Source of the DNA: Dolomedes plantarius
Taxonomy: Eukaryota > Arthropoda > Arachnida > Araneae > Dolomedidae
Reading direction: 5' to 3'
Assembly: GCA_907164885.2 (NCBI GenBank)
Contig: OU015490.1
Location: forward strand, 231,802,741 to 231,866,740
DNA: 64,000 nucleotides
The position numbers and the translations under genes are program-made. The notes beneath the pieces were generated by a model. It was not told where the DNA came from, did not search any database, and was given only the letters and a program-made list of their open reading frames with translations. Within the stretch, counting starts at the first letter, position 1. Every line of letters starts with the position of its first letter. Positions 36,941 to 43,660 of the stretch are shown in pieces.

Positions 36941-37708
36941 ATGGTGTCTACAAATAAATTACTTGCTCTTTGGACATCTCTACTATTGTTTGCATCCAGA
37001 AACCTAGTACAAGGTGGTGGACATGGAGGAGGTGGCAGTGACCTACGAACACTTTTGGGAGGTGGCGTTCTCACTTTACTACTTGCAGGACATCATGGAC
37101 AGAGCTCTGGAAGTTCAGGACACCATCATGGTCATGGTCATGGTCGTTCAAATTTGCCCCACAGTCAAGGGCGCAATGCAGGATTGATGCATGGTCAAGG
37201 ACATAATTTTGGTGGTTTTCCTTACGGTCATGGACTGGGTATTCACGGGCTAGCACATGGTCATGTACCAAGTATTCATGGTCCAGCACAAGGTCTTGGA
37301 CTAGGTTTTCATGGGCCTGCACATATTCATGGGCTAGGTGTTCTTGGGCGAACACACGGTCATGGACTCATTGGAGGCATACCACAAGGTTATGGTTTAG
37401 GTGCCAGTGGGTCTTTATACGGTGGTTTAAATGTCAGAGATTTGGCTTACACTCATGGACTTTATGCTAGTGGTTTTGGAAATGGCAATAAGTTTTCTGG
37501 ATTGCATGGACTAGGCGGCCATGGGTTGGAAGGTCTTGGACATAATTTAGGCTATTCTTCAATACAAAGTCTTGGAGGACATCATATTGTTTCAAGTGCA
37601 GGAGGTTTACAACACATAGGAATTCCATTAAGTGGCATTCATTCCCCGCTCGAGGGATTACCCTACGTTCCTCTACATAGTGACGCTTTACAAAAGCGGA
37701 CACTCTAA
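36941..37708 (+). CDS. Secreted glycine/histidine-rich protein, paralogue 2
   Basis: The 255-residue product has a signal peptide (K6, hydrophobic core about residues 7-18, likely cleavage near G25). The mature start has G-G-G-G-S-D-L-R-T-L-L-G-G-G-V-L-T-L-L-L-A-G at residues 29-50, matching D-L-F-A-G-G-L-L-T-L-L at residues 36-46 of gene 1; both proteins also share M-x-S-T-x-K at the very start. The rest is Gly-, His- and Leu-rich. Residues about 95-150 contain loose repeats of G-L-x-x-H-G-x-A-H-x-H-G. No cysteines are visible, and the C terminus ends basic (Q-K-R-T-L). The His content could bind metal or change charge with pH, but that is speculation. It is probably a structural secreted protein; the exact role is not recognised. 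Confidence 0.85.
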   Translation: MVSTNKLLALWTSLLLFASRNLVQGGGHGGGGSDLRTLLGGGVLTLLLAGHHGQSSGSSGHHHGHGHGRSNLPHSQGRNAGLMHGQGHNFGGFPYGHGLGIHGLAHGHVPSIHGPAQGLGLGFHGPAHIHGLGVLGRTHGHGLIGGIPQGYGLGASGSLYGGLNVRDLAYTHGLYASGFGNGNKFSGLHGLGGHGLEGLGHNLGYSSIQSLGGHHIVSSAGGLQHIGIPLSGIHSPLEGLPYVPLHSDALQKRTL

Positions 37709-37834: not shown

Positions 37835-38112
37835 TCAATTTTGTTATAGAAACATGAATTGTTTGTCCTTACTGTCATTTTTCTTGTTATCGAAATTGCC
37901 ATGATAATAATTTGCATTTTTGTCTTGACTCAAGCATGAATATACAATTAAGTTACCTAAATGAGTTATTATAGAAAATTATAAAGAATGTTTTTCTTTA
38001 TTCTGAGATTTAATATTCTAACAAAGTACAGTAAAAATATCAATGACACTTGAATTTTTCTAAATAAGTAATAATACGTACATAAAAAAGTATATAAAAT
38101 ATAATATATATA

Positions 38113-38413
38113 TGTGACATACAGAGCTGTGGCAACAGCATCCACAGCACCCGTGACGAATCACAAGAGTTCCCGCGGGACAGAGAGCTTCGGCGTGCTA
38201 CGGGGAACGCACAACGAGACAGAGGAAAGGACGTTGGGAAAGAGAGAGGTTATGAATAATAACGTGGTGGCAGACGGCTACCGCAAATACGTAAAATTGT
38301 CTATAGGTTTTTTTGTTAATTGTACCGTTTTTTCGTCCTGTGACCTGTCAACGAATAAATTGGTGTTAGTGTGAACCGCTGTATTAATTTAGAATGACGG
38401 ACACCAATTTACA
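38113..38413 (+). repeat. 5' LTR
   Basis: It starts TGTGACATACAGAGCTG and ends CACCAATTTACA. AATAAA is present near 38355 (GAATAAATTGG). It is matched by the 3' LTR at 41697-41997, the same length. Confidence 0.92.
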
Positions 38414-38431
38414 TGGGACCTCGGACGAAGC
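38414..38431 (+). promoter_or_regulatory. Primer-binding site
   Basis: TGGGACCTCGGACGAAGC directly follows the LTR. TGG at the start is expected for pairing to the CCA end of a tRNA. The tRNA cannot be named from the sequence alone. Confidence 0.6.
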
Positions 38432-38750
38432 ATTTTTCTCAAAGTGAGTTCTGGGCCACTATTCCATATCCCCTAGCAAGCCATCCTACGACGTTATTAA
38501 CGAACTGGATTACTCTTGATTTCCTTCTAGATTACTCTGGATTATTCCGATTTATTTCTTGCCCATCTACGACGAACCTGTGAGCTTAATTTAATTTGTC
38601 AATTGAAGATATATGAACATATTTAAGAAATATTTAAAAAAGAAAGTATGTTTTTCTAACAAATGATTGCATTTTTAATTCCGATACAAGAAGTGTTTTG
38701 TTTTTCAAGATATATTTGCATATTTATATTTTGTGCTGTTTACTTTCAAT

Positions 38751-40253
38751 ATGAGTACTCTAAATGATATCCCGCATATTTCAAAAGCCCTTAAATCAGG
38801 GTCCAAAAAAGCAATTAGATTATTACATCAGTTTATATTTGAAACTGTTGCTGGGAGAGATAATCGTAAAGAACTCCGCATTTTTTCTGGTTTCCCTAAA
38901 ACTTTTCATGTCGCTGACGAACGGGATAAAAGACTTAAAACATTCCACAGCACAGATTTAATTTGTATTGCTAATTTCCTATATCTTGAGTGTTCAACGG
39001 ACCCAGCGCAGAGCTGTGAAACTATTTTCAATGATTTAAATAACTTTGCATTATTTCCCCCTGTGCTCTCGGATACGAGTGAAACCGAAAATGATTTACA
39101 CGACTCCAACAGAAGCTCTACGGTTTTGGCTACTAGCCAGGTACCAGTTCAAAGTTCATTTCCAACTGCAGCTTCACATTCTAATATAAACAACTCTTTC
39201 GAGCACAGACAGATAAATCCTTTTTTATCTGTTGTTGATTCGCAATGTTTTCCAGCCTCTAATAGTCGAATACATTTATCGTTACGAGACCTCGCAGAGT
39301 GCATTAAGAATTTTAATGGTTCATCCGATTCTTATAGCGTTAAAATTTTCATACAGGATTTAGAAGAACTTTTTGATCTTAATAGCATCACAAATGACGT
39401 CCACAAAATTGTCTTTACGAAAATAATTTTAGTTGGTTCCGCAAAAACATTTATTAATTCTCTTCATGGCATAACCACTTGGAATTTGCTCAAAGAAAAC
39501 TTATTAGAAGAATTTTCCTCCAAATTAAATAGCGCCGATCTTCATACTATGTTGCTGCAAAGACGGTTACAACCTAATGAATCCTTACACGACTACTTCA
39601 TAGCTATGCGAGAAATCGGTTCAAGAGGTCAAATTGACATTTCTTCAATTTTTGATTATGTTATCAACGGTATTCCCGATTCTACATCTAATAAAATTTT
39701 GTTATATGGTGCTAAATGTGTTTCAGAATTCAAAGAAAAATTGACAGTTTATCAGAAATTTCTTTCAACGTCCAAATTAAGTAAATCTTCTAAGGATATT
39801 AAATTCACATATGATAATCGTCAACGAAGTTATACCTACGATAGAAAACTCCGTAATAATTCTTCAAAACCCCCCGGTTGCTACAATTGTGGTTCCAAGA
39901 GCCACAAAAGTTCCAGTTGCCCGCATACGACTCCAAAATCTTTTTCATGCAATTATTTTGGACATTTATCCTCAACTTGCTCCAAACGCGTTGGACAGAC
40001 AATTCCAAAGAATTCTTCGGACACTACTCCACCTAATGACGCCTTACATGTTCTGACACCATCCATTTATAAGTGTTATCCAATAATGATAAACAATGAT
40101 CTTCATGAGCTTCACGATTCAGATAACGAAGCTACAATGATTACTGACCAAAACCACCAACTCAAAAAATTGCAGAGTCAGGTGAACGATATTCAGGGAG
40201 AAGTGGAAGAATCTCGGTTAGTTAAAGATGGACTCAAAGCTAAAGCGAAATAA
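38751..40253 (+). pseudogene. gag: gag of the LTR element, joined in frame to myosin sequence
   Basis: I start at the ATG of 38751 (M-S-T-L-N-D-I-P); an in-frame GTG 18 bases earlier is not a likely start. The 500-codon frame has a polar linker around residues 110-160, a capsid-like alpha-helical region about 175-345 (D-L-A-E-C-I-K-N-F-N-G, and L-Q-P-N-E-S-L-H-D-Y-F), and then the nucleocapsid knuckle C-Y-N-C-G-S-K-S-H-K-S-S-S-C (CX2CX4HX4C). A second knuckle, C-N-Y-F-G-H-L-S-S-T-C, has lost its second cysteine and is short. After residue about 455 the sequence turns into coiled coil (L-K-K-L-Q-S-Q-V-N-D-I) that belongs with the following myosin part. The frame ends at a TAA (40251-40253), but the same frame continues beyond. 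Confidence 0.85.
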
Positions 40254-40262
40254 GCTAAAAAG

Positions 40263-41063
40263 ACGCAAAAAGCTTTGGAATCTGAACTGATTCACTTAAA
40301 AGAAGATTTAACACTTTCTGAAATGCAGAAAAGAAACTTAAATGAGGAGTTAGAAGATTTGAGGAATGGACTTCTTGATTATATGGATTCAACAGCTACA
40401 CAACAAGCTTTGCGAACTAAAATGGAGGAAGAACTCAATATTTTAAAGAGAAACTTGGAAGATGAAACTGCTGCACATCAAAACCAGATTCGTAATTTGA
40501 AACAGAAACATACAATTGCGACGGAAAAATTCACTGAACAGTTAGATTCAGTGCAAAAAGCTAAAATTGATCCAGAGAAGACTAAGCACAATCTTGAACG
40601 TGAACGTGAGAGTTTGCAAGAGCAAGTATTTGAAGAAGTAGAAGCATGGAAGAACATAGAGAAAAAGTTAGATATTGCCGAAATCCAGATTGCAGAATAT
40701 AAAAAGAAAACTGAAGAGGAAGCAGATGCTTCTGCTCTGTTAAAAGAACAAACGAAGACAATGTCGAAAGATATTGATATACTGCAATACAAGTTAGATG
40801 AATTACAGATGGTTCATGAAAAGCTGAATAAATCAATGAACAAATTCCAATGAAATCTTGAAGATCTTAACATCGAATTAGACAACCAAATTGAAGAACT
40901 TGAAGATGAATTACAGTTAACTGACTATTCCAAATTACGTTTCGAAGTGAACATGCAAGACTTAAAGACTCAGTTAGAAAAAGACTAGCCAGCTCGAGAT
41001 GAACAAAATGAAGAAAAACGACTAGATTTGATAAAACAGGTTTCTGACCTGGAAGACGAGTTT
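40263..41063 (+). pseudogene. Captured non-muscle myosin II heavy-chain tail (coiled coil)
   Basis: The translation follows the conserved rod of non-muscle myosin II heavy chain (zipper/MYH9-10 type). Markers in order: N-L-N-E-E-L-E-D-L, M-D-S-T-A-T-Q-Q-A-L-R-T-K, L-K-Q-K-H-T-I-A-T-E-K-F-T-E-Q-L, and I-E-E-L-E-D-E-L-Q with L-R-F-E-V-N-M-Q, then A-R-D-E-Q-N-E-E-K-R. The D-S-T-A-x-Q-Q-x-L-R block is typical of non-muscle, not striated muscle, myosin. Against family order, two internal deletions are apparent, near 40611 (at E-R-E-S-L-Q-E-Q) and near 40887 (at L-D-N-Q-I-E-E-L). No introns are present, pointing to a spliced mRNA source. Stops TGA at 40851 and TAG at 40986 interrupt it. The same frame carries gag before and integrase after. 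Confidence 0.85.
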
Positions 41064-41369
41064 ATCAACATCACATTTCAAGCCACAAATCATCTTCGCA
41101 ACGACGCAAAAAACAACATTTTGAAACTGCAAGAGCAGAACAAGCGACAGTATAACAAACGTCGTAAACACCCACCGACTTATCATGTTGGTGACAAAGT
41201 AGCAATTCAACGTACCCAATTTGGGTCTAGGCTCAAGTTGCGCCCCAAATTCTTTGGTCCTTACGAAATCATAAAAGTTCGACCACATGACCGATATGAC
41301 GTCCGAAAAGTTGGTCTGCACGTTGGTCAAAACTTGACATCTACAGCCGCTGATCAACTCAATAGTTAG
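41064..41369 (+). pseudogene. Integrase C-terminal tail (GPY/F-type) of the Gypsy element
   Basis: It reads N-K-R-Q-Y-N-K-R-R-K, then Y-H-V-G-D-K-V-A-I-Q-R-T-Q-F-G, then L-K-L-R-P-K-F-F-G-P-Y-E-I and D-R-Y-D-V-R-K-V-G, ending T-S-T-A-A-D-Q-L-N-S. That is the C-terminal chromatin/DNA-binding tail of Ty3/Gypsy integrases, with the G-P-Y motif. The zinc-binding HHCC domain and the DDE core are missing. It joins the myosin segment in frame after D-L-E-D-E-F. The stop at 41367-41369 is probably the original pol stop. Confidence 0.88.
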
Positions 41370-41680
41370 CGAAACATCTAGTGACTATACCTAAAGATCC
41401 TTTACGATGACGACTTGGACTTGAACAATGTACATTCTCTCATGATCCTGAACTATTGTTCATGACTTTCTTTTTTTTTCTTTTCTTTTCTCTTTGTTTT
41501 GTGTAAAGTTTCAATGACGGCAAAGACTATGGCACCTATGACGAACAATTGCTAAACAACGACGATGATGTAGCTTTAAGACGACCATGTCATGTTTTTG
41601 TTTTGTTTGCTTTCTCCCATTTCTTGTTTTTTTTTAGGTTTGGTTCCTTTGATTTTCTTCGGCAACAGGAGGACCTGTCA

Positions 41681-41696
41681 AGCCAGGATGCCCGAG
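41681..41696 (+). promoter_or_regulatory. Region of the polypurine tract
   Basis: A purine-rich run (ACAGGAGGACC, 41665-41675) and AGCCAGGATGCCCGAG lie directly before the 3' LTR. The exact plus-strand primer cannot be fixed. Confidence 0.45.
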
Positions 41697-41997
41697 TGTG
41701 ATATACAGAGCTGTGGCAACAGCATCCACAGCACCCGTAACGAATCACAAGCGTTCCCGCTGGACAGAGAGCTTCGGCGTGATACGGGGAACGCACAACG
41801 AGACAGAGGAAAGGACGCCGGGAAAGAGAGACGTTATGAATAATACCGTGGTGGCAGATGGCTACCGCAAAGACATAAAATTGTCTATAGTTTTTTTGTT
41901 AATAGTACCGTTTTTTTTGTCCTGTGACCTGTCAACGAATAAATTGGCGTTAGTGTGAACCGCTGTATAAATTTAGAAAGACGGACACCAATTTACA
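41697..41997 (+). repeat. 3' LTR
   Basis: It starts TGTGATATACAGAGCTG and ends CACCAATTTACA. About 18 substitutions or small indels separate it from the 5' LTR by eye. Confidence 0.92.
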
Positions 41998-42012
41998 CAC
42001 ACACACACACAG

Positions 42013-42053
<41 letters not shown>

Positions 42054-42059
42054 CACAAA

Positions 42060-42128
<69 letters not shown>

Positions 42129-42271
42129 CTACGGAGGTGTACGATGTTGAGCAAAAAAGCAAAATGGACTGTAAATAAAATAAAAGTTTAATAGCGTGGC
42201 ATTGTTTGCGAAAGGAAACTCCGCTTGTTGCGTTAGTGTGAACCGCTGTATAAATTTAGAAAGACGGACAC

Positions 42272-42354
<83 letters not shown>

Positions 42355-42443: not shown

Positions 42444-43660
42444 TGAAGTGACACTGAATTAGGGATAGCAAAGCCTATGCAAATTGTGTAGTGCTGCGCA
42501 TCATGTATGCGCAAGTGAGGACGCTGTGGTAACTGCATATATAGAGCGTACTGTGGTTGTTCTGAATTAGTTGTTGGAATTGCCAGTATGGGTAAACTGC
42601 CTGATTTAGACGCCTTCGATCGCGGTCAAATCGTAGGTGCGCGACGCATGGACCATTCAATTTCCGAAATCGTCAGACAGCTAGGATTTTCAAGGTCGAC
42701 AGTGTCAAGAGTTTACCAAGAATGCATGGATGGTGGAAAAAAAACTAGCGATCGGGCAAACTGCAAAGGACAATTTGCCTTGACAGTGCGCGGTGAGAGA
42801 CGGCGCAGGCGTATTGTACGTAGCCAGCGAAGTCAAACATTAGCTCAAATTACCACCCAGTTTAATGACAGTGCCAGTCGTACAGTCAGTAAACGGACTG
42901 TGCAACACTCGCTTCACCGTATGGGTTTCGGGAGCCGTGGACCTACGAGAGTACCATTGCTCTATACTCGCCATCTGGCTGCACGTCTTGCCTGGGCAAG
43001 AGAGCACAGAGACTGGAGTGTAGAGGATTGGAAACGTGTAGCATGGAGTGATGAGTTTCGATTCCGACTACTTAATACCGACGGGAGGCTCAGAATATGG
43101 CGTCAGGCTCATGAAGCCATGGATAATGCAATCCTGGCTGGAACTGTACAAGGGCATGGTGGCTCAATCATGGTCTTGGGTGTTTTTTCATGGCCCAGTT
43201 TGGGATCTTTGGTTTGAGTACCAACCTCCCTGAAAGCAATTCGGTACGTAGAGTTGCTGGGTGATCACCTCCATCCGTTTATGCTGTTCTGTTAACCGCA
43301 CGGTAATGGAGTTTTCCAGCAAGACAACTGTACCTCTCACAAGTCCCGGTTGGCTACTGGCTGGTTGCATGAGCATTCCTCTGACTTCTCAATCATGAAT
43401 TGGCCACCTAGAAGCCCAGACTTAAATCCTATTGATCATCTTTGGGATGTTCTAGAACAAGGCGTGAAAGACCATCACACCACACCAAAGAACCTTACTG
43501 AATTATGGACAGCTTTAGCCAATATTTGGCAAGCCATTCCCGTGGAACGTTTCCAGAAACTTGTTGAATCTATGCCTCGTCGTGTGGCAGCCGTTATCAA
43601 GTCCAGAGGAGGCCCAACTCGTTACTAGGTAGGTATCCCTAATTCAGTGGCACTTCAGTA
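42441..43660 (+). mobile_element. Tc1-like transposon
   Basis: A 1220-bp element with TA on both sides (42439-42440 and 43661-43662) in AT repeats. The ends are inverted repeats: CACTGAAGTGACACTGAATT and, on the minus strand, TACTGAAGTGCCACTGAATT, each followed by AGGGATA. A transposase frame (42588-43628) fills most of the interior but has two stops. Confidence 0.92.
42588..43628 (+). pseudogene. Tc1-like transposase with two in-frame stops
   Basis: One continuous frame of 346 codons is interrupted by TGA at 43215 and TAA at 43293. N-terminal paired-type helix-turn-helix regions cover residues about 10-110 (R-Q-L-G-F-S-R-S-T-V-S-R-V-Y-Q near residue 30, and S-K-R-T-V-Q-H-S-L-H-R-M-G near 105). 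The first catalytic Asp is in A-W-S-D-E-F-R-F near residue 155. The second is in F-Q-Q-D-N-C. The third position is in N-P-I-D-H-L-W-D, where Tc1 proteins normally have Glu. The second and third are separated by 36 residues. The C terminus is R-G-G-P-T-R-Y. Length is as usual for Tc1. Apart from two stops it is well preserved. Confidence 0.92.

Follow-up and report, generated by a model that had tools for sequence, protein, structure and literature searches.

A 64,000-nt stretch of the genome of the spider Dolomedes plantarius (contig OU015490.1, positions 231,802,741 to 231,866,740; hereafter the window) contains, at 38113-41997, a long terminal repeat (LTR) element of the Ty3/Gypsy type in which gag and the start of protease are followed by the rod of a non-muscle myosin heavy chain, the C-terminus of integrase and the second LTR. 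It is highly probable that this element belongs to a non-autonomous Gypsy-type family in which most of pol was replaced by spliced host myosin mRNA in scrambled order, and that the chimera was then copied. A sequence-only reading of the window had reported the chimera and interpreted it as the capture of a host myosin II tail by an LTR retrotransposon. The chimera is real and this interpretation is supported; overlooked were the scrambling of the myosin, the retained start of protease, the large family to which the element belongs and the divergent paralogue that is its likely donor.

Structure and class of the element

The two LTRs, described earlier as matched, have TG...CA ends and differ at 17 of 300 aligned bases and by two 1-nt gaps, which corresponds to a Kimura two-parameter (K2P) distance of 0.059. 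Between them, a single frame of 872 codons (38751-41366) is interrupted by stops at 40251, 40851 and 40986. These three are close to the 3.5 stops predicted by the LTR clock; the other forward frames contain 50 and 95. The gag product shares 32-38% identity with the six gag proteins recovered, of which four are named (two from Trichonephila clavipes, one each from Araneus and Drosophila willistoni), and it matches the Pfam Ty3_capsid profile at E 3.2e-6, with 27.1 bits lying 2 bits under the cut-off of 29.1. It contains one intact CCHC zinc knuckle and a second that is missing its first cysteine, and a capsid fold is suggested by a weak structural match to the dArc1 capsid (E 2.5e-3; mean predicted local distance difference test (pLDDT) score of the model, 57.5). 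The Ty3-like capsid with its CCHC knuckle and the paired LTRs with TG...CA ends place the element in the Ty3/Gypsy (Metaviridae-type) class.

In Ty3/Gypsy elements pol is ordered protease, reverse transcriptase, RNase H, integrase, and only its two extremities, the start of protease and the end of integrase, remain here, both in place. The claim that protease, reverse transcriptase, RNase H and the integrase core had all given way to host sequence holds for the absent pol core but not for the start of protease, whose active-site motif reads DSD in the window copy as compared to DTG in five of six relatives and DPG in one (P0005). The integrase tail (41061-41366) gives a weak match to Pfam SH3_Tf2-1 (E 0.001, below the cut-off) and carries what we take to be a GPY/F-like motif. 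The last 51 bp of the LTR occur a second time at 42230-42280, ~230 bp 3' of the 3' LTR and again ahead of a (CA)n(TA)n array.

Identity of the captured myosin

The captured piece comprises 903 bp of non-muscle myosin II rod (40158-41060). It matches Pfam Myosin_tail_1 at E 1.2e-33, and its top chains in the Protein Data Bank are smooth or non-muscle myosin II (E 7.6e-24); muscle myosins score far lower, and the best chain that is not a myosin reaches E 0.01. Among 7993 protein candidates scored, the closest is a non-muscle myosin from Trichonephila clavata (P0007; E 3e-69, 252 bits versus 180 for the next). The best matches are therefore those that the sequence-only reading had expected, and an unrelated coiled coil is ruled out. 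That reading had placed the myosin at 40263-41063 as one stretch of about 800 bp; its assignment to the non-muscle rod stands, whereas its bounds and its continuity do not, as the piece consists of four segments (A to D, in element order) that align to P0007 in scrambled order, each gap-free and at 65-79% identity. A non-muscle myosin II gene has a motor domain and a continuous rod, and the element contains only the four scrambled rod segments. The reported order of gag, myosin and integrase holds. A search with a 199-aa myosin query among protein candidates restricted to ~0.55-1.75 times its length returned no match, and scans of viral contigs with the myosin and gag queries returned no relative.

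Donor gene and loss of introns

The host genome searched (2.78 Gb) contains both an ordinary non-muscle myosin gene, on C2, which in four exons is 84-88% identical to that of Parasteatoda, and, on C7, a divergent paralogue that resembles P0007. Matches to the C7 gene end near P0007 residues 1151, 1222, 1291, 1326, 1377, 1434, 1532 and 1604. Four of the intron positions (1151, 1222, 1377 and 1434), at which the C7 gene shows splice sites, fall inside segments B and C, which read through them uninterrupted. Segment D crosses 1604 and segment A crosses 1656, and at both of these the C2 gene shows splice sites (the match to C7 likewise stops at 1604, but with no GT exactly where it ends). Over the two host myosin genes together, the element thus lacks an intron at six positions where a host gene has one, in agreement with the intron loss proposed earlier, and the donor sequence was therefore a spliced mRNA.

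In a tree calculated from 232 positions, which took in five of the 40 copies described below, these copies and the C7 gene group together with a support of 99 and P0007 lies outside; the C7 branch measures 0.013 and the stem of the family 0.21. When the window copy alone is used and the C7 gene is omitted, it groups with P0007 at a support of 100, on a branch six times longer than that of P0007. Judging from these comparisons, the donor was most likely the divergent myosin paralogue on C7. A second, divergent non-muscle myosin II gene is present both in the host (L049 and L060 on C7) and in Trichonephila (P0007). Its C7 exon covering 1532-1604 is odd, being 98.6% identical to T. clavata, as compared to 57-85% in the other six exons seen.

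Copies in the genome and their age

Other copies in the same genome, which the sequence-only reading had suggested looking for, are numerous and have the same order of gag, myosin and integrase. Rearranged myosin occurs at at least 78 places, some of them partial. The myosin DNA of the window occurs at at least 40 places including its own, and the other 39 are 91-93% identical to it (the best 40 of 321 first-look candidates). All 39 have gag-derived and integrase-derived sequence flanking the myosin, although the integrase end is partly cut short, and the five junctions, from gag-A to D-integrase, are common to 36, 39, 39, 39 and 38 of them, respectively. A genome search with P0007, in which the best 24 of 4266 candidates were scored, picked up rearranged myosin at 20 places, of which one was already among the 40 and 19 were new; an apparent '1896 aa open frame' around one of these copies proved to be a run of N and not a gene. 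A gag search gave 40 places, of which 13 were in the myosin-DNA set, 2 were in the P0007 set, 20 were examined and 5 were left out. In 19 of the 20 examined, gag runs into myosin, two of them only partly (L068, L071), and in the exception (L078) it is followed by sequence that matches neither the element nor the tested proteins. The true copy number is probably in the hundreds. Because the five junctions recur in dispersed copies that have LTR pairs of their own, the chimera must have been copied many times.

The captured myosin occurs with several different deletions, as indicated by differences at the C-to-D deletion, which among the 20 places from the P0007 search has a different form (1437 to 1505) in 10, the window type in 9 and is ambiguous in 1, and by a third form (L050) in which myosin 1478-1607 lies between gag remnants and integrase. 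A ~107-bp unit of the leader is tandemly multiplied in some copies (L019, L020, L022), reaching ~10 units in L019. The flanks of the copies (window 38100-38112 and 41998-42110, and those of L009-L047) are mostly (TA)n/(CA)n repeats, which hide any target site duplication. Alternating purine/pyrimidine sequence is strong in 12 of 15 5' flanks and 15 of 18 3' flanks versus 5.6% of the background, which suggests a target preference.

The LTR pairs of 23 of the 39 copies (the other 16 have no usable pair) have a median K2P of 0.041, with a range of 0.007-0.071. The window myosin differs from the C7 gene by a synonymous divergence (dS) of 0.42 and a nonsynonymous divergence (dN) of 0.13, and of the 21 conserved myosin positions that it has lost, 15 are also lost in more than 80% of the other copies. 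As the dS to the C7 gene far exceeds the K2P of 0.059 between the window's LTRs, and as these losses are shared, the capture is old and the spread more recent.

Selection on gag and on the myosin

In gag, counted over 31 copies, nonsynonymous and synonymous variants number 283/75 among singletons and 34/36 among variants common to at least three copies (P 4.8e-7). The corresponding counts for the myosin in 40 copies are 190/59 and 38/16 (P 0.39), and those for the integrase piece in 34 copies, 64/16 and 12/8, are too few to judge; for gag and integrase, copies without full coverage of the piece were omitted. Singletons look neutral in both gag and myosin, for which the random expectations are 2.9 and 3.1. 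Since the shared gag variants are poor in nonsynonymous changes, gag has been under purifying selection in the source lineage, while in these counts the myosin residues are not detectably under selection. The gag frame counts, by which two of the 31 copies have neither a stop nor a frameshift, are unreliable because the length of a poly-C run varies. This run, at 39050-39060 of the window, has 4-13 C among the 31 copies and may represent slippage, an assembly error or a recoding site.

The myosin part is free of stops and frameshifts in 12 of the 40 copies. It is conceivable, though doubtful, that the captured coil is functional, such that a fusion of Gag, myosin and integrase tail is made, aids Gag assembly or interferes with other elements, and is kept by selection. 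One frame continues across all five junctions, no segment has a gap relative to P0007, and no stop occurs among myosin variants common to at least three copies. The three stops of the window copy compare with 7.5 in a neutral simulation (P about 0.04), and because stops in the myosin would leave Gag itself whole, the open frame is not explained by Gag alone. The differences from the C7 gene that are fixed in the family are poorer in nonsynonymous changes than the singletons (40/32 versus 190/59, P 0.001), but this test is biased toward selection because part of the synonymous changes lies on the host branch. However, the shared myosin variants are not depleted of nonsynonymous changes, and six stop positions are each common to two copies. 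Replacements are only slightly more conservative than under neutrality (P 0.095), coiled-coil core positions are not spared (26/87 versus 68/211, neutral simulation), and 16 of 97 conserved myosin positions have been lost in most copies. We read these data as a myosin frame that was kept open while its residues drifted, so that the captured piece would be mainly a spacer that is tolerated, or else a coiled-coil extension of Gag under loose constraint. A bolder proposal, which we regard as unlikely, is that the element is a gag-only parasite in which the shuffled myosin coil became a working Gag tail (a multimerisation or packaging module), and that this tail helped it to prevail over relatives that carry pol and to reach hundreds of copies.

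Origin of the chimera

Comparison with the C7 exons shows that the rod pieces are joined inside exons, in frame with gag and with the end of integrase, and that microhomologies are present in the host exon DNA, 5 nt at the B-C junction and 6 nt at the C-D junction. By a hand calculation that assumes equal base frequencies, ~0.5% and 0.1% of random breaks would have such microhomology by chance, and somewhat more in AT-rich DNA. An origin of the scrambled order in back-spliced (circular) or exon-skipped myosin RNA, and not in template jumps, appears improbable. Downstream segment A does precede upstream segment B, as in a back-splice, but the junctions at 1236, 1349, 1444 and 1553 match none of the known C7 exon edges (the B edge at 1144 and the A edge at 1705 lie outside the C7 exons compared), and this rules out exon skipping at B-C and C-D. 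That the piece is intron-less, degenerate and interrupted by three stops would also fit a processed pseudogene of myosin that landed by chance in a dead Gypsy element and played no part in its spread. This is scarcely credible, however, since the segments are scrambled and their joints fall within exons, all five junctions keep one frame, and dispersed copies with LTR pairs of their own share these junctions between gag and integrase flanks; the last observation rules out a simple pseudogene in a dead copy.

In the capture that we favor, a myosin mRNA would have been packaged by chance with the element RNA, and reverse transcriptase would have jumped several times between the templates. One product would have been able to spread, with reverse transcriptase and integrase for the later rounds presumably supplied in trans by a related autonomous Gypsy element, and the selection seen on gag suggests that the source elements made their own Gag.

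Several points weigh against this account. No helper element is tied to the myosin-carrying family; the candidate is an abundant pol-bearing Gypsy family of the host with long open pol frames (21676 candidates; the 90 listed are all 45-47% identical to the query). Since 24 of 4266 candidates were scored in the P0007 search, a paralogue closer than the C7 gene could have been missed, and the microhomology comparison covers two of the five junctions (B-C and C-D). Copy numbers are lower bounds, places on C14 and C227 found with P0007 may be duplicates of one locus, and gene conversion between LTRs could make insertions look younger than they are. The abundant Gypsy family is itself apparently young, with many open frames of 1394-1405 codons among the matches listed.

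Features of the element and its surroundings

Table 1. Parts of the myosin-carrying element (window coordinates; residue numbers refer to P0007).
Feature	Position	Strand	Remarks
5' LTR (TG...CA), 301 bp	38113..38413	+	94% identical to 3' LTR
5' leader	38414..38750	+	putative primer site TGGGACC at its start, assigned to no tRNA
gag (capsid, zinc knuckles) and first part of protease	38751..40157	+	profile, relatives, weak fold support
Myosin rod segment A (1651-1705)	40158..40322	+	stop at 40251; crosses an intron position of the host C2 gene
Myosin rod segment B (1144-1236)	40323..40601	+	spans two intron positions of the C7 gene
Myosin rod segment C (1349-1444)	40602..40889	+	stop at 40851; crosses two intron positions of the C7 gene
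Myosin rod segment D (1553-1609)	40890..41060	+	stop at 40986; crosses one intron position
Integrase C-terminal end, same frame, with stop codon	41061..41369	+	sequence in 39/39 other copies, partly cut short
3' untranslated part of element	41370..41696	+	
3' LTR	41697..41997	+	TG...CA pair with 5' LTR

Elsewhere in the window, a broken transposase of the Tc1/mariner type (HTH_Tnp_Tc3_2, DDE_3) is present at 42588-43628. Two open reading frames, at 1578-2426 and 36941-37708, encode glycine-rich, secreted-looking proteins whose starts are alike by eye, and a Pfam search with both gave no match.

Comparison with known systems

No described retroelement carrying a myosin rod was found among the open-access papers searched, as judged from titles and the opening lines of abstracts. 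The spider family is a clear case of an animal LTR retrotransposon that took up a host mRNA as several joined pieces and became a successful mobile family. Because the likely donor, its exon borders, the breakpoints and datable copies share one genome, the scrambling of mRNA by reverse transcriptase, the lifespan of a chimera and the benefit of captured domains are directly testable. With host sequence from a spliced mRNA between its LTRs, and with the chimera itself copied, the family belongs with the LTR elements that transduce host genes. In acutely transforming retroviruses, pol gives way to a piece of host coding sequence fused to gag, and the maize element Bs1 has lost pol functions. Unlike those viruses, the spider family is found in the germ line and involves no infectious virus and no oncogene.

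Bs1 resembles the spider element in being an LTR retroelement with host gene fragments in a chimeric coding region (PMC13317346, PMC5408686), but it belongs to a plant and carries pieces of three genes, whereas the spider element is an animal Gypsy-type element with four scrambled pieces of one gene and dozens of copies with shared junctions. The TR-GAG elements of plants are non-autonomous and contain only GAG, or GAG and protease, between their LTRs (PMC6022998); the early genes of its own that the spider element keeps are likewise limited to gag, or to gag and protease, but it is distinguished by the host myosin piece and the integrase remnant. Crocodilian endogenous retroviruses that captured KIT-ligand and nectin3 mRNA (PMC4299795) also have an mRNA-derived host gene inside an LTR element that is present in several copies. 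They are, however, vertebrate retroviruses whose host open reading frames are under purifying selection, one acquired without loss of a viral domain and the other at the expense of env. In the LTR-mediated retroposition of animals, host mRNAs are duplicated through template switching, and a product can be amplified, as in the family CG17604_r (PMC8277862, citing Tan 2016). The spider element shares the proposed template switching on a host mRNA and the later amplification of the product, and it differs in that its host piece lies in frame between gag and the end of integrase and in that its gag is under selection.

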